Shown here: positions 12,372 through 22,879 of the stretch, in pieces
How the letters are laid out: each line of letters begins with the position of its first letter
How positions within the stretch are numbered: the stretch's first letter is position 1
Source: Candidatus Saccharicenans sp.
GTDB lineage: Bacteria > Acidobacteriota > Aminicenantia > Aminicenantales > Saccharicenantaceae
Length of the DNA stretch: 32,960 nt
Direction: 5' to 3'
Assembly: GCA_030018265.1 (NCBI GenBank)
Contig: JASEFX010000023.1
Span: forward strand, 1-32,960
Translations under genes and position numbers: made by a program
The notes under the pieces: generated by a model
Told to the model about the DNA's origin: nothing
Database searches by the model: none
The model's input: the letters and a program-made list of their open reading frames with translations, nothing else

Positions 12372-13679
12372 TTATTCCTTCTTGAGAATTTTTATATCTC
12401 CGTAAGCAGTTTCCAGCTTTATTTCAGGACGATCGAGGGCTGAACAGAAGGCTTTGAGCACAGCCGTGCCGTTGGAAGTGTTTTCGTCCGGGAGAAGAGG
12501 GAGCTTCCAGGAAATACTGCCTCCTCGAGTGAAAGCCTGAAATCTGGCAGTCTGGTTTTCCGGCCAGAAAAAGGTGATATCGCCATACGCGGTTCGGGCG
12601 AAAATCGGAAAATCAAGACTGGAGGGAACCAACCTTATGTCTCCATGTTTCGAGATGAGCTGGAGCTGACCGCTGAAATTTTCCAGAGTGACCGGTTCAT
12701 AGGTGGTTTCGATGTTAAAATTTCCTCCTGAAGCGTTGACTATCTCTATCCTGGAACTTTTTGCTCTGACCATCAGATCACCTTCGACCTCAGAGATTTT
12801 AATTTTTTCATAGGTTGTTTCCAGGTCGAGTTTTCCCTTCAGCCGGGTTATTTCTACCGGAGAATGATGTCCCCGGATAAGGGCCGGTCCGGTTTCCATC
12901 AGGCTGATCAGTTCGTGCGACCCTTTAATTTCCAGCGGGCCTGAGATGCGCAGGGCTTTTATACGGGTATGTCGGGACTGGATGTTGAGAGAATTTTTCA
13001 GGTCGAAGAGCTCCAGAGTTTCGTGAGCGCAATCTATTCTCACAGGTCCGCCGATCCGGCTTAAAAGGGCGGAGGAGTGTCTGGTTTCGAGCTGACACTC
13101 GCCGCCGGCATCGATGATGGAAACTTTTTCGTGCGAGTTTTTAACGCGGACAGCGCCGGAAATTTCGATAATCTCCACCTTCCCGCCGGGGTTTTCCAGG
13201 TCAACTTCTTTTGCTCCGGAAATACGAACCGGGCCGTACGAATTGCGGATGATTAATGCCGTGGTCGAGGGTACTTTCAGCCTGAAACTGGTGGTAAAGT
13301 TTTTCCTTCTGAAGCTGTCTCGATTGGTGGTCAGGACCAGTTGCTGGTCTTCTGCTGTCATCAACGGTTTTATCTTTTCAGCAATTTCTCTGGCCTCCTC
13401 CTCGTTTTTACTCCAGACTCTTTTTTCCAGGATTATCTGTATTCTGTCAGTATCGCCTCCCTCAACCTGAATGCTGCCGTGAGTGTTGATCACCTTCAGG
13501 ATTTCAGCCGGCTCCCGGGAGAAACTTTCTTCAAAAAGATATGATTCGCCCCGGAGCTTAAGGATTAAATCCCGGTCTTCTATTCCGGCTTTGATCCGGT
13601 CGAAATAGTGAAAACCGACGCCGATCAGGATGATCAATAGCAGGAGAAGAACTTCCTTAGCTTTCATCTTTTTTATCAC
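12372..13679 (-). CDS. Membrane-anchored DUF4097-type beta-solenoid protein
   Basis: The last gene of the five-gene sigma-factor operon encodes 435 residues. A short cytosolic tail and one hydrophobic span (about residues 9-25) anchor a large outer domain. From residue 148 to 345 the sequence repeats every 17-19 residues with a His or Tyr at matching places: Y148, H183, H201, H219, H237, H255, H272, Y290, Y327 and H345, with degenerate turns at 165 and 308. Each turn ends in a Gly-rich or polar corner followed by an alternating hydrophobic strand. This is the look of a DUF4097/DUF4098 beta-solenoid. Such proteins sit beside LiaF-like and PspC-like genes, but their ligand is unknown. The start is a GTG with GGAG ten bases upstream and overlaps the preceding gene by 23 bases; an ATG four codons later is also possible. 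Confidence 0.82.
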   Translation of the reverse strand: MIKKMKAKEVLLLLLIILIGVGFHYFDRIKAGIEDRDLILKLRGESYLFEESFSREPAEILKVINTHGSIQVEGGDTDRIQIILEKRVWSKNEEEAREIAEKIKPLMTAEDQQLVLTTNRDSFRRKNFTTSFRLKVPSTTALIIRNSYGPVRISGAKEVDLENPGGKVEIIEISGAVRVKNSHEKVSIIDAGGECQLETRHSSALLSRIGGPVRIDCAHETLELFDLKNSLNIQSRHTRIKALRISGPLEIKGSHELISLMETGPALIRGHHSPVEITRLKGKLDLETTYEKIKISEVEGDLMVRAKSSRIEIVNASGGNFNIETTYEPVTLENFSGQLQLISKHGDIRLVPSSLDFPIFARTAYGDITFFWPENQTARFQAFTRGGSISWKLPLLPDENTSNGTAVLKAFCSALDRPEIKLETAYGDIKILKKE

Positions 13680-13905
13680 CGGGAATTATCTCCACCCGGG
13701 GGAGGTCGGCTTCAGTTCGCTCAGCCTGGCGGCGGGCTTTAAGACCATAGTAAAGTTTTGAAGCGCCCCAGAAAATCAGAATCAAAGGCCAGAGCTTGAA
13801 AAGAATTCTCCAGGCGTCATAGCCAATGTTCTCCAGCAGGAAGAGGACCCCGAGAGTTATCAGTATGAGTCCCCAGACTAAGTTGTGTTTATGCTTTCGG
13901 GTCAT
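13657..13905 (-). CDS. Small LiaI/LiaF-like (DUF5668) membrane protein
   Basis: The 82-residue protein is almost entirely a two-span unit of the LiaI-LiaF-TM/DUF5668 type: VWGLILITLGVLFLLENIG, then a short WRILFKLWPLILIFWGASKL helix, ending in a charged cytosolic tail. In Firmicutes related proteins inhibit envelope-stress signalling or respond to it. Here it lies between a larger paralogue, which it overlaps through an ATGA start-stop junction (13902-13905), and the DUF4097 gene, which it overlaps by 23 bases. It likely forms a complex with one of them; that is inference from the order. Confidence 0.8.
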   Translation of the reverse strand: MTRKHKHNLVWGLILITLGVLFLLENIGYDAWRILFKLWPLILIFWGASKLYYGLKARRQAERTEADLPRVEIIPGDKKDES

Positions 13906-14432
13906 CTTTGTTCTCCTTTTTCCTGATTTTTATGTTTTTTCTGGCTGGTAAAATAATCGGCCAGAAGTTTCAAACCGAGACCGATCAGAAGAAGCGGCCA
14001 GTAGTCGAGAAGCGAATCATAACTGATGAGGTCAAAATTGGCCAGCAGGAACAGGCCTCCGAGCAGGATGAGAATAATCCCCCAGGATATCGAACCGGAA
14101 GGACGGTTTAATTCCAGCTCGGCTTCCATCGAAACTCGGGTTGAAGCTTTTTCTGCCATTTCTTCACCGGCTGAGACGGCCGAGATTTTTCGGGCTTCGT
14201 GGACCGAGTCGATGATCTGAAAGAAGTAGAAGCCGGCCAGAAGCAGGCCAGCGAATGGCTGGGGACCTCTTGATTGCATCGTTACCAGGCCGGCGAAGAT
14301 GACGATGAACATCAGCCCTTTCAGGTAACTTCCGTTGTAGATGGCGCCGGTCCCGGGAAAGATGGCTGAAAAGATTCCAGCCAGAGCCGGCGAACGAGGC
14401 GGTTTTTTTTCGATTTTAATTTTTTCTTCCAC
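13902..14432 (-). CDS. Membrane protein with N-terminal TM2-like and C-terminal LiaF-type (DUF5668) spans
   Basis: The 176-residue protein has two hydrophobic halves. Residues about 16-70 (LAGIFSAIFPGTGAIYNGSY and following) resemble a TM2/DUF5683-type hairpin with Pro-Gly turns. A polar, probably cytosolic linker follows (about 75-112). Residues about 113-160 (SWGIILILLGGLFLLANFDL, then YWPLLLIGLGLKLLADY) match the span pair of the 82-aa gene downstream, so the two are local paralogues. It starts 17 bases after the anti-sigma gene and overlaps the next gene by four bases. A role in relaying envelope state to the anti-sigma factor is inferred from context only. Confidence 0.78.
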   Translation of the reverse strand: MEEKIKIEKKPPRSPALAGIFSAIFPGTGAIYNGSYLKGLMFIVIFAGLVTMQSRGPQPFAGLLLAGFYFFQIIDSVHEARKISAVSAGEEMAEKASTRVSMEAELELNRPSGSISWGIILILLGGLFLLANFDLISYDSLLDYWPLLLIGLGLKLLADYFTSQKKHKNQEKGEQR

Positions 14433-14449
14433 CTTAAACCTCCATATTT

Positions 14450-14980
14450 TTATTTTTCCGGTTTATCAGAAGGATTTATATTTTTCTTTTCCAGAGTGGC
14501 CATCAGGCTTTCACGGTATCCGTCGAGCCTGTCTTTCAGGACTCCGGCTTTAACTATCGTTTTCTGAACTCCGCTGTAAAGGCGGCGAAATTCCAGCGCG
14601 GCAGATTTCTGGAGGCTTTTGCCCGGAGCGGTGAAAGTCAGCAGCGAGAAGAAAACCAGAATCACCGATACAGACACCAGAACCGGCTGGAAAGCTGGAT
14701 TCAGCCAGAACTGCCAGAAGCGTATTTTTTTCGCTGCGGCGGGTTCTTGCTTGAGCCGGGTAGCCTGTCGGGGAATTTGATAAAGTTTCTCGCTCAATTC
14801 AGCCGGAGGCTCGACTTCTGGCAGCCTTGACCACACCTCAGCCAGACTTCTCGTGGCTTCCAGGAGGCGTGAGCAGTCGGAGCAGCCGGTCAGATGGGCC
14901 TCAAAGTCTGAGTGGAGATCTGCCGGGAGTGCGCCTTCAAGATAGGCAGAAAACAGAGATCGGGCTCTCTTACAGTTCAT
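14450..14980 (-). CDS. Zinc-finger (HC2) transmembrane anti-sigma factor
   Basis: The 176-residue protein should bind and hold the ECF sigma factor encoded just upstream. Its N-terminal anti-sigma domain has Cys3 and the H-x3-C-x2-C cluster H29, C33, C36, the zf-HC2/ZAS zinc site. A single hydrophobic span lies at about 97-117, followed by a C-terminal outer region of about 55 residues without a known sensor fold. The start codon overlaps the sigma gene stop (ATGA at 14977-14980), the usual translational coupling of sigma and anti-sigma. Release could be by redox change at the zinc site or by proteolysis of the outer region; the sequence does not decide. Confidence 0.92.
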   Translation of the reverse strand: MNCKRARSLFSAYLEGALPADLHSDFEAHLTGCSDCSRLLEATRSLAEVWSRLPEVEPPAELSEKLYQIPRQATRLKQEPAAAKKIRFWQFWLNPAFQPVLVSVSVILVFFSLLTFTAPGKSLQKSAALEFRRLYSGVQKTIVKAGVLKDRLDGYRESLMATLEKKNINPSDKPEK

Positions 14981-15540
14981 AATTCACCTCCTGTTTTTTC
15001 CAGGATCGCCCGGGCAATCTGTATTCGGCCGCGGTTTACCCGGCTTTTAACCGTGCCCAGCGGAAGTTTCAGCTGGCTGGCTATTTCTTCATAGCTGAAT
15101 CCCTCTAATTCTCTCAGGATAAGCACGATTCTTAACTCTGGAGAGAGACTCAGAAGCGCCTGCCTGACCAGTTCGGCTTTCTCCTGGCCGAGCAATCTGT
15201 TTTCGGGCGAATCAACCGCGCTGGCGGAAGCGTTGAGTTCCTCAAAATCTGACCTGAGCGAGTTTTCCACCCTGTGTTTACGGTATTCATCTATCAGGAA
15301 ATTCCTGGCCAGTGTGAGAAACCAGGCGCTGAAATCCTTCTCGAAATCGTATTTCTCCAGGGAATTGTACAGCTTGAGAAAAATTTCCTGGGTGAGGTCC
15401 TCGGCTTCCTGGGGTGTGCCGGCGAACCGGTAGGCTAAGTTGAAAATTTTTCGGGAATAAAGGTCAACCAGCATTTTCCAGGCTTCCGCCTCTCCTTTCA
15501 GGCATTTTTTGACGATCTCTTTCACTTCCACGCAATTCAC
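14977..15540 (-). CDS. ECF RNA polymerase sigma factor (minus-strand arm)
   Basis: The 187-residue protein has the two-domain ECF architecture. Sigma-2 (about residues 20-90) includes EAEDLTQEIFLKLY for core and -10 recognition. A variable linker follows. Sigma-4 (about 125-180) has the helix-turn-helix FSYEEIASQLKLPLGTVKSR. It heads a five-gene operon running down to 12372. The start is unusual. The open frame begins with GTG at 15540, only four bases after a sigma-E-like -10 element, which suggests a leaderless mRNA. A second in-frame GTG at 15531 has AAGGTG six bases upstream. The promoter next to it suggests autoregulation by an ECF sigma. Confidence 0.94.
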   Translation of the reverse strand: MNCVEVKEIVKKCLKGEAEAWKMLVDLYSRKIFNLAYRFAGTPQEAEDLTQEIFLKLYNSLEKYDFEKDFSAWFLTLARNFLIDEYRKHRVENSLRSDFEELNASASAVDSPENRLLGQEKAELVRQALLSLSPELRIVLILRELEGFSYEEIASQLKLPLGTVKSRVNRGRIQIARAILEKTGGEL

Positions 15541-15698: not shown

Positions 15699-16304
15699 AT
15701 GAATAACTGGATGGACGAGCAGGCTCTTATGGAAAGAGTAAAAAAGGGGGACGAGTCTGCTTTCGCCAGGCTGATGACCATTTACAAAGACCGGATAGTG
15801 AATTTTCTTTACCAGGCGACCGGAGATTACCAGCTGGCTGTCGATCTGGCCCAGGAAACCTTTCTTCGGGTGTATTTCAAGGCTAAAAAGTACCGGCCGA
15901 TCGCGCCGGTTTCAGCCTGGATTTATTCGATCGCGGCCAACCTGGCCAGAACCGAAAAGAAAAAATTGAGCCGCCAGCAGACGATTTCTCTGGAGGAAAT
16001 TGTCAACGACTATTCTTCCGGAAGCTATTCGGTCGACCATGCTGACCCGGGCTTGATGAGGAATGTGCGCCAGGCTCTAAAACGCCTTCACCCCAGATAC
16101 CGCATTCCGTTAATACTGAAAGATGTCGAAGGCTTTTCTCAGGAGGAGATTGCCGAGGTGCTTAAACTTCCTCTGGGCACGGTCAAAGCCCGGATCAGCC
16201 GTGGACGGGAATACATCAGGCGCTGGCTGGAAGAAGGACAGGAGATAAAAAACAGGAAAGATAAGAGCGACAATGAAACCGAAAACGACTTTCATGAATT
16301 ATAA
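15699..16304 (+). CDS. ECF RNA polymerase sigma factor (plus-strand arm)
   Basis: The 201-residue protein is a second ECF sigma. Sigma-2 covers about residues 15-90, with LAVDLAQETFLRVYFKAKKY and the WIYSIAANLA segment. Sigma-4 covers about 125-185, with FSQEEIAEVLKLPLGTVKAR. It ends in a charged tail rich in Lys, Asp and Glu. It is divergent from the other sigma gene across 158 bases and is followed after 17 bases by a one-span membrane protein and then an HtrA-like protein. This sigma / membrane protein / HtrA-like order recalls rpoE-rseA plus degS or degP. The ribosome site is weak (CAGG before the ATG). Confidence 0.93.
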   Translation: MNNWMDEQALMERVKKGDESAFARLMTIYKDRIVNFLYQATGDYQLAVDLAQETFLRVYFKAKKYRPIAPVSAWIYSIAANLARTEKKKLSRQQTISLEEIVNDYSSGSYSVDHADPGLMRNVRQALKRLHPRYRIPLILKDVEGFSQEEIAEVLKLPLGTVKARISRGREYIRRWLEEGQEIKNRKDKSDNETENDFHEL

Positions 16305-16321: not shown

Positions 16322-16684
16322 ATGGATATCGGAAATTATTTTAAGAATCTCGACCGGGTATCTGCCCCGCCCGGATTTGAAGCGTCAGTTCTGGCCCGGC
16401 TGCGGGAAAGAAATGAAGCCAGGCTGCGCTTGAGAAGGCTGAGCTTCAGCCTGGCCGGCGCCATGGCGGTCGTTCTGGCGGCGGTGATTCTCCTCCTTCC
16501 GATTTTTAGAAAAACTCACCCGGAACAGGCAGATCTTTCGTTCGCCGGTCAGCCGGAAAAAGTGATTGCCATTGTCGAACCTCTTAACCTTAAGAACGAG
16601 TTGCACCGGTCTGAGGGCGATTACCGAACGATATTCATCCTGGAGCAGGTTTCCAACAGCATGATTCAGCAAATCAGTTATTAA
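16322..16684 (+). CDS. One-span membrane protein in anti-sigma position, no zinc finger
   Basis: The 120-residue protein has a cytosolic N-terminus of about 42 residues (a helix with APPGFEASVLARL and a basic RLRLRRL stretch), one hydrophobic span at about 43-61, and a C-terminal outer part of about 58 residues. It contains no cysteine, so the zinc cluster of the other arm is absent. Its place right after an ECF sigma gene and its topology fit an RseA-like anti-sigma factor. A role as a co-regulator or as an anchor for the HtrA-like protein is also possible. GGAGAG precedes the ATG, and the next gene begins ten bases after its stop. Confidence 0.7.
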   Translation: MDIGNYFKNLDRVSAPPGFEASVLARLRERNEARLRLRRLSFSLAGAMAVVLAAVILLLPIFRKTHPEQADLSFAGQPEKVIAIVEPLNLKNELHRSEGDYRTIFILEQVSNSMIQQISY

Positions 16685-16694
16685 GGAGGTTCAG

Positions 16695-18368
16695 ATGAAA
16701 GGAAAAGCTTCAGGACGATGGCTGGCATCGACGATCATCCTGGCGAGTCTATTCTTTTTGGTCAATCCTGCTCATTCGAAACCGGTTCCGTCGGCCGATC
16801 GAGACGCCAGCGAGATTGTTAAAAAGGTCGCACCCTCGGTGGTCAGAGTTGAGGTCCGGAATGGTCTCCGGAGGGTGGCCACCGGCGTGGTTATAGATAA
16901 AGATGGCTATATAGCCACCACCGCTCTGGTTTCGCCGAAAGGCGAGAAGCTCTCTGTGGTTGATAGCGGCGGTAAAAGCTATGAAGCCGTGTTCCTCGGT
17001 TTTGACCCGGAAACCAGGATAGCCTTCGTTCAGGTAAAGGATAAAAAGCTTACTCCGGTGAACCCGGGTTCCACCAGAAATCTCTCGCCCGGTTCCTGGG
17101 TCTGCGCGCTGGGCATTTCTCCGGACGCAGGCATTTCAGTGACCCAGGGAATAGTGAGCAGCCTTTCGGCTGGCCGGATGAGGCTTAACCTCTGGTTAGC
17201 CCCCGGAATGAGCGGAGGTCCTGTTCTGGACGAAAAAGGCGACTTTGTTGGCCTTCTCCGCGGTGTCTATTCTGAAGACCGCCCGATTGTTTTCCAGTTC
17301 AGGGATCGAGAAGCTACAGGAACCGGAGTGGTCTACAGTCAGGCGGAGGCTCCTTCAGCTGGCATGGCAATGGCAATCCCGGTAGAAATGGTTATGGAAA
17401 TTTTCAGGGAGATAAAAACCAGAGGCAGAGTCGAAAGAGGCTGGCTTGGAGTTTCCATCGCCGAGGACCGGCAGGGGAAAGTGTTCATCACTCAGGTGGA
17501 GGAAAAAAGTCCGGCTGAGCAGGCCAGGCTTAAACCCGGCGACCGGATATTAAAAATTGGTGGACGGGAAATCGTTTCCAGCGATCAGCTCGTGGCGGAA
17601 ATAAGAAGCCGGCGGCCAGGGCAGGAAGTAAACCTGAGCATCGAAACGGATGGAGAAACCCGCGAAGTTAAGGTTAAGCTCGGCTCGGTGCCGGAGGAAC
17701 AGGCCCGGAGGGAGCTCGAACTGAGGTTCCCGGAACTTTTCAGAAACCTGCCTAAATTTCCGGAAAGACCTGTGCTGCCGGAGTTCCCGGGAGGAGAAAA
17801 ATTCGAGTTTGGCTTCGAACATTACAGGTATATTGGAGTCTATATTGAGCAACTTAATCCTGAACTTTCAAAGTATTTTGGCGTCCCTGAAGGACGGGGA
17901 CTTCTGATTGCCAGGGTAAATGCCGGGAGTCCGGCCGAAAAAGCAGGACTGAAGGTAGGGGATGTAATCATAGCTGCTGACGGAAGGAGAGTCGAAACTC
18001 TTGAAGCGCTGACTGATGAGATTCAGAAGAAAAAGAAGGGAGAAAAAATTTCCCTGGAAATTATAAGAGATAAGAAAAAAATGCGGCTTGAAGTGGAAGT
18101 GGCTGAAGAAAAAAGGCCTGGCTGGCCAGGGACAGCCAGGATTTATGGAAAACCGGGAGAATGGCCGGAGGCTCTGGAAAAGTACCGGGACCGGGTAAAA
18201 AAATCTGTGGAAAAGGTGATAGAAGAAAATAAGGAGCAGCTGATGAAAATTCAGGAAGAGCTGGAAAGGATAAAACCCGAAGTCGAAAAGAATCTCCAGA
18301 AGTTGCAGGAAGAGACCGGAAAGTTGAAGCTGGAAATCTTTTTTCCGGATTCTATCAGAAAAATATAA
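16695..18368 (+). CDS. HtrA/DegP-like two-PDZ protein with a degenerate catalytic triad
   Basis: The 557-residue exported protein has a signal peptide (1-28, AHS before KPV), a trypsin-like domain (about 37-235), PDZ1 (about 248-330), PDZ2 (about 379-470) and a C-terminal charged coiled coil (about 491-546). The fold matches DegP: GYIATTALVSP aligns with the DegP segment that contains the catalytic His, but Leu78 is there; FDPETRIAF aligns with the Asp segment, but Arg108 is there. Only the Ser remains (GMSGGP, Ser173). It is therefore probably not a protease but a peptide-binding sensor, chaperone or scaffold. PDZ ligand loops look intact (GWLGVSI, KPGDRILKI). A strong AAGGAGG site sets the start. 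It is the last gene of the plus-strand sigma arm and ends in an intrinsic terminator. Confidence 0.9.
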   Translation: MKGKASGRWLASTIILASLFFLVNPAHSKPVPSADRDASEIVKKVAPSVVRVEVRNGLRRVATGVVIDKDGYIATTALVSPKGEKLSVVDSGGKSYEAVFLGFDPETRIAFVQVKDKKLTPVNPGSTRNLSPGSWVCALGISPDAGISVTQGIVSSLSAGRMRLNLWLAPGMSGGPVLDEKGDFVGLLRGVYSEDRPIVFQFRDREATGTGVVYSQAEAPSAGMAMAIPVEMVMEIFREIKTRGRVERGWLGVSIAEDRQGKVFITQVEEKSPAEQARLKPGDRILKIGGREIVSSDQLVAEIRSRRPGQEVNLSIETDGETREVKVKLGSVPEEQARRELELRFPELFRNLPKFPERPVLPEFPGGEKFEFGFEHYRYIGVYIEQLNPELSKYFGVPEGRGLLIARVNAGSPAEKAGLKVGDVIIAADGRRVETLEALTDEIQKKKKGEKISLEIIRDKKKMRLEVEVAEEKRPGWPGTARIYGKPGEWPEALEKYRDRVKKSVEKVIEENKEQLMKIQEELERIKPEVEKNLQKLQEETGKLKLEIFFPDSIRKI

Positions 18369-18391: not shown

Positions 18392-18423
18392 GGGCGGGAT
18401 TTATCCCGCCCTTTTTATTTTTT
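18392..18423 (+). terminator. Intrinsic terminator of the HtrA-like gene
   Basis: A perfect 8-bp stem, GGGCGGGA (18392-18399) with TCCCGCCC (18404-18411), has a four-base loop and is followed by TTTTTATTTTTT. It lies 24 bases after the stop codon. The T-run overlaps the 3' end of the convergent trmH gene. Confidence 0.9.
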
Positions 18424-19064: not shown

Positions 19065-19283
19065 TGCCGGTGGATTCCGGAAATCTTCTGTGACGAGAAC
19101 CGGAAATTTGAAAATTCTCGTTAGCTCAGGCCATGGCCATCAAAAATGATTTATTAAAAACTGCTGAATGTCAGCAGTATGGAGCAAGCTGGAGAGAAGA
19201 TAGCCTTCATTTAGCATATTTATTGTTATTAGCCGTCGGGAGAATCAGTTTTTCTCCGATGCATACGGTGGTTTGGGCTGCCC
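19065..19283. other. Intergenic stretch with two small hairpins
   Basis: Between the trmH promoter and the tRNA-Leu promoter I see no gene. There are two perfect 7-bp inverted repeats: ACGAGAA (19093-19099) with TTCTCGT (19115-19121), and CTGCTGA (19161-19167) with TCAGCAG (19171-19177) around an ATG loop. Neither is followed by a T-run. Their function is unknown. Confidence 0.35.
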
Positions 19284-19312
19284 TTGAAAAAAGGCAAAGA
19301 TTTTTCTATAGT
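19284..19312 (+). promoter_or_regulatory. Promoter of tRNA-Leu
   Basis: TTGAAA (19284-19289), a 17-base spacer and TATAGT (19307-19312) make a good housekeeping promoter. Transcription would start about ten bases before the mature tRNA. Confidence 0.65.
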
Positions 19313-19328
19313 TTATTAACCAGAAGTT

Positions 19329-19417
19329 GCCGGAGTGGCGGAACTGGCAGACGCGCTGGACTCAAAATCCAGTCCGATTCAAATCGGGTGTGGGTTCGAC
19401 TCCCTCCTCCGGCACCA
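19329..19417 (+). tRNA. tRNA-Leu(CAA)
   Basis: This is a type II tRNA with acceptor arms GCCGGAG and CTCCGGC. The anticodon arm CTGGA/TCCAG has loop CTCAAAA, giving anticodon CAA at 19363-19365. The long variable arm is CCGATT/AATCGG. The T-loop is TTCGACT. The discriminator is A19414, and CCA is encoded at 19415-19417, unlike the tRNA-Gly gene in this window. Confidence 0.95.
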
Positions 19418-19613
19418 TAACGTTATTCAGATGCTGATTCCTCTATTCAAGCAATTGATTTTTCCAGCCATGTTTTCCTTTTAGCTAAATGAGAAAGTAA
19501 GAAATTTTTAATTTTTGACATTCTGTCTGCCTGAGTGCTTTCGGTCTGAAAATCTTTAAAATCACATGTTTAGCGAAATCCCTGGAGGCAGTGCCGATAC
19601 GACTTTTTTGCTC

Positions 19614-19786: not shown

Positions 19787-22700
19787 TTGAAAAAGCTAAT
19801 TTTGATCAGCTTTCTTCTTATCTGGTTGCTGGCAGCGGGAACAGCCTTTGCCCAGATCAACCCTGAAGGCATGATTATGGGAAAAGTCCTGGACGAGCAG
19901 GGCAATCCGCTGCCGGGTGTTTCGGTTGAAGCTACCAGCCCGAAGCTGGTGGGAAAAGCCACGGCGGTTACCGATGCCTCCGGCATTTATCGTCTCATGG
20001 CTCTGCCTTCCGGAACTTATGAAATCACCTTTACGCTTCCCGGGTTCAAGAAACTCGTAAGGAAAGATATCTACCTGGCACTTTCCCAGAATCTGGTGTT
20101 GAATGTGACACTGGAACCGGCAGCTATCGAGGAAGAAGTGACCGTGGTCGGACAGGCGCCCCTGATCGACGTGAAAAGCACGGTCAAAGGAATGGTTATG
20201 ACCAAAGACATCTTTATGTCGCTGCCACGCGGACGGAGTTTTGATTCTTTGATAAACATAGTTCCGGGAGTTCATTATGAGAGCAAGGTTGGCGGCTTTA
20301 CCATGGATGGGGCTTCCGGCGCTGAAAACGTCTGGCACGTGGACGGCACAGATGTAACCAGCATTCATGTTGGCACAAGAGCCCAGAACGTCGTTCTGGA
20401 GCTGGTGGACGAAGTAAAGGTGGTGGCTTCAGGGTATAACGCGGAGTTCGGCGGCTCGATGGGCGGAGTGGTCAACGTGATTACCAGGTCCGGAGGCAAC
20501 ACTTTCCATATGGATATCATCGGTTTCTATGAAAACAACAAAAGATACATGCAGGGTAAAGCTCGGGATTATCTGCGGCAGAATCCTTATGACGTGGATC
20601 TTTATGAATACGTAAATAATGACGACCTCTATTTTGATGGCGGCAGAAATCGGGATAAATATTACCGGCTGGAAGGCGCTTTCACCCTCGGAGGATATAT
20701 CATAAAAGACAGGCTGTGGTTTTTCGGTTCCTACAATCCAATCTTTGCTCAAACGCTGGCTCTTCGTGATTTTAATTCCAGACAGGGACCTTTTTATCAA
20801 TTTCCAAGACGGGACTACTACTACAACGGTTCTTTTAAGTTAACCGCTGCGCCGGTAAAGGGGCTCAGACTTTCTGCCAGTTTTGTCAACAACTTTTATA
20901 AATACAGGGGAGCCATACCGAGCATCGGCGGCACGTCTTCTGCCTCTTATGAATGGTACAAAGAAGGTTATGATTATCCGGATTATTCCACTTCATTCAT
21001 GGCTGATTATTCCACCAGCAATAATTTCCTGGTAAGTCTCAGGGGTGGCTGGCACCGGCAGAATACCACTAACCAGCAGATTAAACCGCCGGCTCATACC
21101 ACTTATTATTTCTACACTTCCAATTATGTTTTTCAGAATGATCCTTTTTTCCAGGCTCATCCGGAACTTCTCCATTATGCTTACTGGACGGATTCCAGCA
21201 TATTTATGGAGACAAGGAAAAGGCTGTACGAAAAGATCAGCGCCAACCTGGACTTCACCTACTACCTGACGATGGCCGGAGAGCATGCCTGGAAAGCCGG
21301 GCTTCAGTTTATCCAGTTGCACGAAGATGTTCTGGATTATTCGCCTTATCCGAGAGTGTATCTATTCTGGAACAGGACTTCATACGCGCTTGGTTTTCCG
21401 GTTGGCGTTGGCGCACCTCCCGATAGCCCCTATTATGGTCGTTACGGTTACTATTACATCAGAAGCGGCTGGACCTCGCCTTATGGTGGCGTCTGGAACG
21501 CCAGAAGCAACAACTGGGCGATTTACCTGCAGGATTCCTGGACGGTCAAAGATCGTTTTACCGTTAATTTTGGTGTCAGGGCTGAGAGCGAATACATTCC
21601 ATCATTCACTGACGACCCGATTTACGCTCATATCAAGAAACCGGTCAATTTCACCTTTACCGACAAAATAGCTCCGAGAATTGGTGTCGTCTATGATGTT
21701 TTCGGAGATTCCAGCCTGAAGATTTTCGGTAGCTACGGCATTTATTACGACGTGATGAAGCTCTACATTGCCGTCCTGAGCTTCGGAGGCTGGAAACACA
21801 AACGCGATTTTTACGCGCTGAAGGATCCTGACTGGACGAAAATAGCGGCCAGCGGGTTGCTTGATGACAGAGCCAGTCAGGAGTACAACAACACCTATAC
21901 CGGCACGCTGGATTATCTGCCACCTTCTTTCGACCGGGTGGACCCGGCACTGAAACCGGCAGCCCAGAGCGAGATCTCACTGGGAGCCGAGAAAAAATTG
22001 ATGGAAGATCTCTCCCTCTCGCTGAGACTCGTTCATAAACACCTGATCCGGACGATTGAGGATGTCGGTGCTCTCGAATGGGTTGGCGATACACTGCAGG
22101 AAATCTTCTACATCTGCAATCCTGGATACGGCTATTCGCTGCCAGTTTCCAGGGGAGGTAAGTTTGCTGATGAGTACTGGCCATGCCCCAAAGCCAGGAG
22201 AGATTATTACGCTCTAAATCTTTCTCTGGAAAAGAGATTCAGTAATAACTGGCAGGGCGGAATCAATTACACGCTGAGCCGGGTTCAGGGCAACTATTCC
22301 GGACTGAGCAGCGCGGATGAGGACGGCCGCAACGCGCCCAACGTCACGCTTTATTATGATGACTGGTTCCTGGCTTACGATGCCTACGGTAATGTCCTGA
22401 AAGGTCCACTGCCTCACGACCGCACCCATTACATCAAAGCCTATGGTTCTTACGTGTTTCCGTTCGGGTTGACCATCGGTGTAACTGCTTACGGACGGAG
22501 CGGCTTGCCACTGACCACAAGGTTATATATGAATAACCGCTACATTTATCCGGAAAACAGAGCTGACCTTGGCCGCCTGCCGTTCACCGTCTGGGCTGAT
22601 GTTTTTATGGAATATACCTTCAGGTTCGCTCAGAAATATTCGGTGGCAGTTAACCTCCAGGTAAACAATGTCTTTAACACTAAAACCATTCAGAGCAAGA

Positions 22701-22879
22701 TTACGGACCTGAACAGGAACTCCATCTGGGTGGATGATGAAGATATACTGAACGGGAATCTGGCTGCTAATTACCGCGAATGGTCCAACACTATGGGCAA
22801 TCCGCATCCGGCTTTCGGTCAGTGGTCAACCAGATTCGGAACCTGGTCAGCCCGGGCAGGCTTCAAATTCTCCTTCTAA
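19787..22879 (+). CDS. TonB-dependent receptor with carboxypeptidase-regulatory-like N-domain (Oar-like), 1030 aa
   Basis: This outer-membrane beta-barrel probably imports a large substrate, such as a peptide or glycan fragment, using TonB energy. A signal peptide (1-23, ending AFA before QIN) is followed by a CarboxypepD_reg-like Ig domain (about 29-115, GKVLDEQGNPLPGVSVEAT). The plug (about 118-235) contains PRGRSFDSLINIVPGV and FGGSMGGVVNVITRSGGN. The long aromatic barrel ends in KFSF with a terminal Phe for BAM recognition. The start is a TTG, fixed by AAAAGGAGGG six bases upstream and by the signal peptide starting there. There is no SusD-like partner nearby. The gene has its own promoter and terminator. 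The substrate cannot be read from the sequence. Confidence 0.93.
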   Translation: MKKLILISFLLIWLLAAGTAFAQINPEGMIMGKVLDEQGNPLPGVSVEATSPKLVGKATAVTDASGIYRLMALPSGTYEITFTLPGFKKLVRKDIYLALSQNLVLNVTLEPAAIEEEVTVVGQAPLIDVKSTVKGMVMTKDIFMSLPRGRSFDSLINIVPGVHYESKVGGFTMDGASGAENVWHVDGTDVTSIHVGTRAQNVVLELVDEVKVVASGYNAEFGGSMGGVVNVITRSGGNTFHMDIIGFYENNKRYMQGKARDYLRQNPYDVDLYEYVNNDDLYFDGGRNRDKYYRLEGAFTLGGYIIKDRLWFFGSYNPIFAQTLALRDFNSRQGPFYQFPRRDYYYNGSFKLTAAPVKGLRLSASFVNNFYKYRGAIPSIGGTSSASYEWYKEGYDYPDYSTSFMADYSTSNNFLVSLRGGWHRQNTTNQQIKPPAHTTYYFYTSNYVFQNDPFFQAHPELLHYAYWTDSSIFMETRKRLYEKISANLDFTYYLTMAGEHAWKAGLQFIQLHEDVLDYSPYPRVYLFWNRTSYALGFPVGVGAPPDSPYYGRYGYYYIRSGWTSPYGGVWNARSNNWAIYLQDSWTVKDRFTVNFGVRAESEYIPSFTDDPIYAHIKKPVNFTFTDKIAPRIGVVYDVFGDSSLKIFGSYGIYYDVMKLYIAVLSFGGWKHKRDFYALKDPDWTKIAASGLLDDRASQEYNNTYTGTLDYLPPSFDRVDPALKPAAQSEISLGAEKKLMEDLSLSLRLVHKHLIRTIEDVGALEWVGDTLQEIFYICNPGYGYSLPVSRGGKFADEYWPCPKARRDYYALNLSLEKRFSNNWQGGINYTLSRVQGNYSGLSSADEDGRNAPNVTLYYDDWFLAYDAYGNVLKGPLPHDRTHYIKAYGSYVFPFGLTIGVTAYGRSGLPLTTRLYMNNRYIYPENRADLGRLPFTVWADVFMEYTFRFAQKYSVAVNLQVNNVFNTKTIQSKITDLNRNSIWVDDEDILNGNLAANYREWSNTMGNPHPAFGQWSTRFGTWSARAGFKFSF

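Follow-up and report, generated by a model that had tools for sequence, protein, structure and literature searches.

Both halves of the arrangement described here are already known, namely operons of sigma and anti-sigma factor genes that include an HtrA gene, as is the case for MucD, and HtrA pseudoproteases, as exemplified by MamO. The PDZ domains of the HtrA proteases DegS and AlgW bind YxF and WVF C-termini (PMC8545111). In RseA, the segment holding Val148/Ser149, the site of DegS cleavage, is buried by RseB, whereby the site is protected (PMC7400510). MamO is a characterised HtrA pseudoprotease with a bulky Trp in its L1 loop, and further, independent HtrA pseudoproteases are found in other magnetotactic bacteria (PMC4794232). 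As a group, HtrA pseudoproteases are little studied, and MamO, a well-characterised bacterial example, serves magnetosome formation. In the open-access literature, no report was found of a catalytically dead HtrA protein in an ECF sigma/anti-sigma operon, or of a family of such proteins in Aminicenantes.

The window analysed here is a stretch of 32,960 nucleotides from Candidatus Saccharicenans sp. (contig JASEFX010000023.1 of assembly GCA_030018265.1). At 16695..18368 of its forward strand (+), on which all gene and protein features lie unless stated otherwise, it encodes an HtrA pseudoprotease of 557 amino acids, as judged from the open reading frame, Pfam, alignments, a tree and an AlphaFold2 model. 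The protein begins with a putative signal peptide, read from the sequence (about residues 1–28; 16695..16778; N-terminal helix 6–22 in the model), followed by a trypsin-like domain (about residues 40–249; 16812..17441) with barrel strands in the model and a Pfam Trypsin_2 match at 62–187 (7.5e-23). Two PDZ domains are found by Pfam, with carboxylate-binding loops that are conserved among 60 aligned orthologues, which represent the order Aminicenantales. PDZ1 (residues 250–329; 17442..17681) carries the loop RGWLGV, with W250 and G252 each present in 60/60 orthologues, and PDZ2 (about residues 378–469; 17826..18101; Pfam PDZ_6 at 405–458) carries the loop RYIGV, with G381 in 60/60. The C-terminal region (residues 490–543; 18162..18323) is modelled as two helices (490–511 and 513–543), probably forming a coiled coil. 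These C-terminal helices are absent from the shorter dead HtrA proteins (471–478 amino acids) of several Saccharicenans-related species (L054–L057 and L059). The extreme C-terminus (18357–18365 in the window) is Ile or Val in 46/67 sequences, often as R-I, K-V or R-V, and this end is possibly another C-terminal PDZ ligand candidate, perhaps for self-binding.

The AlphaFold2 model, built with the 60 orthologues (mean pLDDT 77, pTM 0.54), comprises the trypsin-like barrel, both PDZ domains and the C-terminal helical region, and its top Foldseek matches are DegQ and DegP at 22–24% identity. Against the NCBIfam Do family TIGR02037, the protein scores 227.5 bits, which is below the cut-off of 416.2; in Pfam, only trypsin and PDZ-type families match, with no match to the MucB/RseB family. 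An earlier, sequence-only reading of this DNA had described the frame as unbroken and the two PDZ domains as intact, and had suggested an overlay on DegP/DegS; the open frame with its 60 orthologues, the two Pfam domains with conserved carboxylate loops, and the DegQ/DegP-like predicted fold all agree with it.

The positions of the catalytic triad were set by HMMER alignment to solved DegP-like proteins as well as to the active HtrA paralogues that this genome encodes. The catalytic His is replaced by Leu78 (16926..16928), which is Leu in 60/60 orthologues and is written in six codon types. The catalytic Asp is replaced by Arg108 (17016..17018), a position held by R in 23, H in 20, Q in 7, G in 6, N in 3 and S in 1 of the orthologues and never by D or E, while the nucleophile is retained as Ser173 within GMSGGP (17211..17213; Ser in 60/60, with AGY codons in 53 and TCN codons in 6). 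These are the same three assignments that the sequence-only reading had made by hand. On the question of whether Leu and Arg are conserved, which it had raised, Leu turned out to be fixed, whereas Arg is not, although an acidic residue never takes its place. The six codon types of Leu78 and the two codon classes of Ser173 indicate that selection acting at the protein level keeps both residues, and Ser173 is under selection within the order Aminicenantales. The triad loss is far beyond chance, given Leu at the His position in 60/60, the constant absence of D or E at the Asp position and the single clade of dead proteins (see below), and the gene is maintained rather than decaying. Gene decay or a private mutation was ruled out by Leu at the His position in 60 orthologues, and retention of Ser173 merely through recent common descent by the use of two Ser codon classes.

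Residues 40–250 of the pseudoprotease contain no His, the protein having only two His residues, one in the signal peptide (His26) and one in the linker (His376), and no column of the protease domain conserves a substitute His or Lys among the 60 aligned orthologues, 21 of which lack any His in their first 250 residues. A nearby His therefore cannot complete the triad, a way out for which the sequence-only reading had left room, and substitute triad residues are ruled out. Loss of catalysis is considered close to certain. In the L1 loop, Trp167 (17193..17195), six residues before Ser173 and W in 51/60 orthologues, may fill the S1 pocket, which it probably obstructs.

Two alternatives bear directly on these residues. 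A cryptic hydrolase, in which Ser173 and an unusual partner still cut, perhaps only the tail of the neighbouring one-span protein described below, could account for the invariance of Ser across two codon classes and of the G-x-S-G turn, from which the oxyanion loop is probably kept; it is nevertheless very improbable given the missing His and Lys, the probable block of the S1 pocket by Trp167 and the loss of Ser in a sister family (see below). Still harder to credit is a trypsin fold repurposed for metal binding as in MamO, with which the protein shares the kind of triad loss and the L1 Trp, since the metal ligands of MamO are His148 and His263, whereas the pseudoprotease domain has no His and there is no magnetosome context.

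An orthologue was detected in 39/40 relatives at 43–71% identity, the exception being an assembly (G035) that is 82% complete. When one genome of each bacterial species was scanned by pattern, 67 loci of dead HtrA were obtained, mostly labelled as Aminicenantes, Saccharicenans or Acidobacteria, with a few labelled as ‘uncultured bacterium’ or ‘Bacterium’ and one as ‘Clostridiales’. The last (L062, JARYMI010000026.1, ‘Clostridiales bacterium’) has a typical Aminicenantes operon at 48% identity and is probably a mislabelled assembly. Within two samples of Acidobacteriota, comprising 297 and 199 genomes, the family is confined to the class Aminicenantia, nearly all sampled members of which keep dead HtrA beside the genes for a stress-response sigma factor and a membrane-bound partner; some genomes of the class (family f8 and one genome of family f11) lack both dead HtrA and any detectable one-span protein.

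In a maximum-likelihood tree, the dead proteins constitute one clade with 100/100 support, apart from the active HtrA paralogues of the same genomes, all of which have His-Asp-Ser. The triad was lost before these orders diverged. The triad is gone in the other orders of the class, too, and there the Ser position varies, with Ser in L127, L129, L130 and L134, Thr in L131, Ala in L132, L133 and L135, and Ile in L136; in the most distant rows, MAFFT had put the His column one residue off, and these were read by the motif T/S-T/N/S-x-L/I/M. Hence, the wider family can function without the Ser that is retained in Aminicenantales. In the sister family f9, Ser is replaced by Thr, Ala or Ile in 5/6 proteins, most of which show the operon, and the retained Ser173 is therefore unlikely to mark hidden catalysis.

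The pseudoprotease gene is preceded by an ECF sigma factor gene, the first of the operon (15699..16304; Pfam Sigma70_r2/r4_2), and by a gene for a one-span protein. It is followed by a GC-rich inverted repeat with a T run (18392..18411), which, from its sequence, is a probable terminator between it and a convergent SpoU methylase gene. This order of ECF sigma, one-span, dead HtrA and convergent SpoU genes is conserved from genus to order, with the SpoU gene being further away in a few loci. The adjacency of the first three genes holds in every Aminicenantales relative with enough upstream contig, all exceptions being contig ends, and their order persists in other orders, except for L136, where the upstream region is not readable as an operon. 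By comparison, in none of 40 loci of active HtrA is an ECF sigma gene located up to about 1.5 kb away. The placement of the gene directly after an ECF sigma gene and a one-span gene, as stated in the sequence-only reading, is thus a conserved linkage, and the single transmembrane span of the intervening product was borne out by sequence and alignment.

The main rival explanation starts from this operon. According to it, the pseudoprotease is a non-proteolytic chaperone or scaffold of the sigma regulon, which binds misfolded envelope proteins via its PDZ domains and leaves the anti-sigma factor alone, the gene sharing the transcript because its expression is under the control of the sigma factor. 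Operons of sigma, anti-sigma and effector genes are common (algU-mucA-B-C-D includes an HtrA gene) and the PDZ domains are intact; the strict class-wide linkage to the one-span gene, however, would be left unexplained, and we deem this explanation rather unlikely.

A second ECF operon, comprising genes for a sigma factor, a zf-HC2 anti-sigma factor, LiaI-like membrane proteins and a DUF4097 protein (12372–15540, reverse strand), diverges from the pseudoprotease operon across about 158 bp; conservation of this divergent pair covers the genus and L061, a locus from the same family, and does not extend to the other families that were checked. Downstream, an open reading frame at 19133–19420 (+) overlaps a tRNA-Leu gene (19329–19417) and is probably no real gene.

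The one-span protein (120 amino acids; 16322..16684) has one transmembrane span (about residues 43–62; 16448..16507), preceded on the cytoplasmic side by an AP..FE motif (residues 15–20; 16364..16381), which is invariant in 65/65 sequences. Weak matches to NCBIfam anti-sigma families were obtained for 13/26 members. The segment of AP..FE motif and transmembrane span is shared well beyond the one-span family across Acidobacteriota, and no Pfam family describes it; all 18 remote homologues examined elsewhere in the phylum (L173–L190) are encoded next to an ECF sigma gene. Some of them carry an HxxxCxxC zinc-binding part upstream of the shared segment. Based on the weak matches and on these neighbours, the one-span protein resembles an anti-sigma factor that has been shortened, possibly down to its last helix and the transmembrane span. 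As in class I anti-sigma factors, the gene is located beside an ECF sigma gene and the product has a single span, while the N-terminal 42 residues are devoid of the His/Cys zinc motif (HxxxCxxC) of that class; its anti-sigma role is, therefore, inferred.

The C-terminal tail of the one-span protein, TIFILEQVSNSMIQQISY-COOH (residues 103–120; 16628..16681), comprises a strand-like motif with a Val-Ser pair, a variable spacer and a terminal Tyr. Its consensus is T-[IV]-[YF]-I-L-E-Q-V-S, followed by the spacer, the columns of which have an entropy of about 3 bits, and by I-x-Tyr-COOH; the terminal Tyr, L107 and E108 are present in 65/65 sequences and S111 in 60/65. A one-residue insertion in the tail is seen in L054–L057 and L059. 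Since the Tyr is encoded by TAT as well as by TAC, and each of the three stop codons occurs, the constraint acts on the end of the protein, and a nucleotide constraint such as a ribosome-binding site is ruled out on the same grounds. In other orders, the one-span proteins end in Phe (..GAYF), Tyr, Ile or Leu, all of which are hydrophobic. Because the ends are -NQI or -GTI in the sister family f9 and -KPL in one genome of another family, a terminal aromatic residue is not universal. In one locus of another order (L127, genome G099), the protein ends in ..DREGAYF, close to the YxF outer-membrane ends that activate DegS.

The hallmark of PDZ ligands is a hydrophobic residue fixed at the free C-terminus, and the conserved tail resembles the ends bound by the PDZ domains of HtrA proteins. 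Its Val-Ser pair recalls the DegS site Val148/Ser149 of RseA, the latter parallel being an analogy. The invariant terminal Tyr and the ILEQVS motif of the neighbouring protein would be left unexplained if the pseudoprotease were merely a chaperone of the regulon. On the other side, a natural stop-read-through fusion of the two proteins (locus L071) was modelled with AlphaFold2, and no docking of the tail was seen, the tail being disordered (pLDDT 25–34) and forming no strand, which is in line with the chaperone explanation. This model represents a monomer instead of a trimer, has no free carboxylate and is based on 15 fused rows; hence, it lowers, and does not refute, the proposal of tail binding by the pseudoprotease.

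Besides the pseudoprotease, the host genome encodes two active HtrA proteins, one with two PDZ domains (DegP-like, contig C28) and one with a single PDZ domain, as well as RseP, so that the components needed for regulated intramembrane proteolysis are present. The one-PDZ protein (L041/L152, contig C35) has a full triad and is a candidate site-1 protease. With two active HtrA proteins and RseP in the genome, the cutting cascade may still run, which would make the pseudoprotease a modulator, not a stand-in for DegS. The same active paralogues allow for an improbable reading in which the tail is recognised by an active HtrA, which the pseudoprotease joins or allosterically activates. HtrA proteins are trimers. 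MamO, as a precedent, promotes MamE-dependent proteolysis (PMC4794232); against such a role, the operon has no linked active HtrA gene, and there is no sequence sign of mixed oligomers.

With the cutting machinery lost, the pseudoprotease probably binds peptides and regulates the sigma factor instead of cutting. Specifically, we propose that the class-wide pseudoprotease is a non-proteolytic periplasmic partner of the ECF sigma/anti-sigma pair and holds the tail in a manner similar to RseB/MucB, a reading for and against which the case is about evenly balanced. The one-span protein, as a putative shortened anti-sigma factor, would keep the sigma factor at the membrane, and the pseudoprotease would bind its periplasmic tail T[IV][YF]ILEQVS...IxY-COOH as a ligand, a PDZ domain taking up the terminal Tyr and the dead cleft possibly accommodating the ILEQVS strand. 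In this bound state, the tail, including its Val-Ser pair, would be shielded from the active HtrA proteases of the cell. Ends of mislocalised outer-membrane proteins, which have aromatic C-termini, or other stress ligands could compete for the PDZ domains; this would expose the tail to active HtrA and then to RseP, upon which the sigma factor would be released. A candidate for a natural competitor peptide is encoded in the window itself, namely the end ..FKFSF, a typical outer-membrane C-terminus, of a large TonB-type outer-membrane protein (19787–22879, +). The more far-reaching claim of a new class of ECF envelope-stress systems, in which dead HtrA replaces RseB/MucB, its PDZ domains hold the ..IxY-COOH end of the anti-sigma factor and stress peptides compete it off, is put forward tentatively and with some doubt.

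The pseudoprotease is ancient, extending across orders of the class; its linkage to an ECF sigma module is strict, and a candidate ligand is encoded next door. Relative to the sequence-only reading, the invariant Tyr at the end of the one-span protein is new, and it makes the hypothesis testable. If the tail is bound, the HtrA scaffold would be able to regulate regulated intramembrane proteolysis without cutting, and a route would be opened to envelope-stress sensing in a mostly uncultured diderm class.

Among known systems, the Do family (DegP/DegQ/MucD, S1C) shares the architecture of the pseudoprotease, with a signal peptide, a trypsin-like barrel and two PDZ domains, and DegP-like proteins are its best PDB sequence and Foldseek matches. 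Of the features that define HtrA proteins (S1C), the double-barrel domain with one or two PDZ domains is present and the His-Asp-Ser triad is not; unlike DegP/DegQ/MucD, the protein has lost His and Asp, scores far below the Do cut-off and carries a C-terminal helical extension. MamO is likewise derived from HtrA, with a dead triad and an L1 Trp, and is maintained by selection, but it has a di-His metal site, a transporter domain and a magnetosome context, whereas the pseudoprotease has no His in the protease domain, keeps its PDZ domains as well as Gly at position 193, and is encoded in an ECF sigma operon. From the class I ECF anti-sigma factors (zf-HC2), the one-span protein differs by the missing zinc HxxxCxxC part and by its periplasmic tail, which is short and carries a fixed motif at the C-terminus, while it shares the AP..FE motif and the transmembrane span with anti-sigma-like proteins of other Acidobacteriota. 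DegS and AlgW, too, combine an HtrA fold and PDZ with an ECF anti-sigma factor, a partnership suggested for the pseudoprotease by linkage; however, they cut, have one PDZ domain and are anchored in the membrane, whereas the pseudoprotease cannot cut, has two PDZ domains and carries a signal peptide. The job proposed for it would be that of RseB/MucB, a soluble periplasmic partner that keeps a region of the anti-sigma factor from the site-1 protease and is encoded after the anti-sigma gene, as the pseudoprotease is after the one-span gene. The folds, however, are unrelated, RseB/MucB being composed of lipid-binding lipoprotein-like domains and the pseudoprotease being built on the HtrA scaffold.
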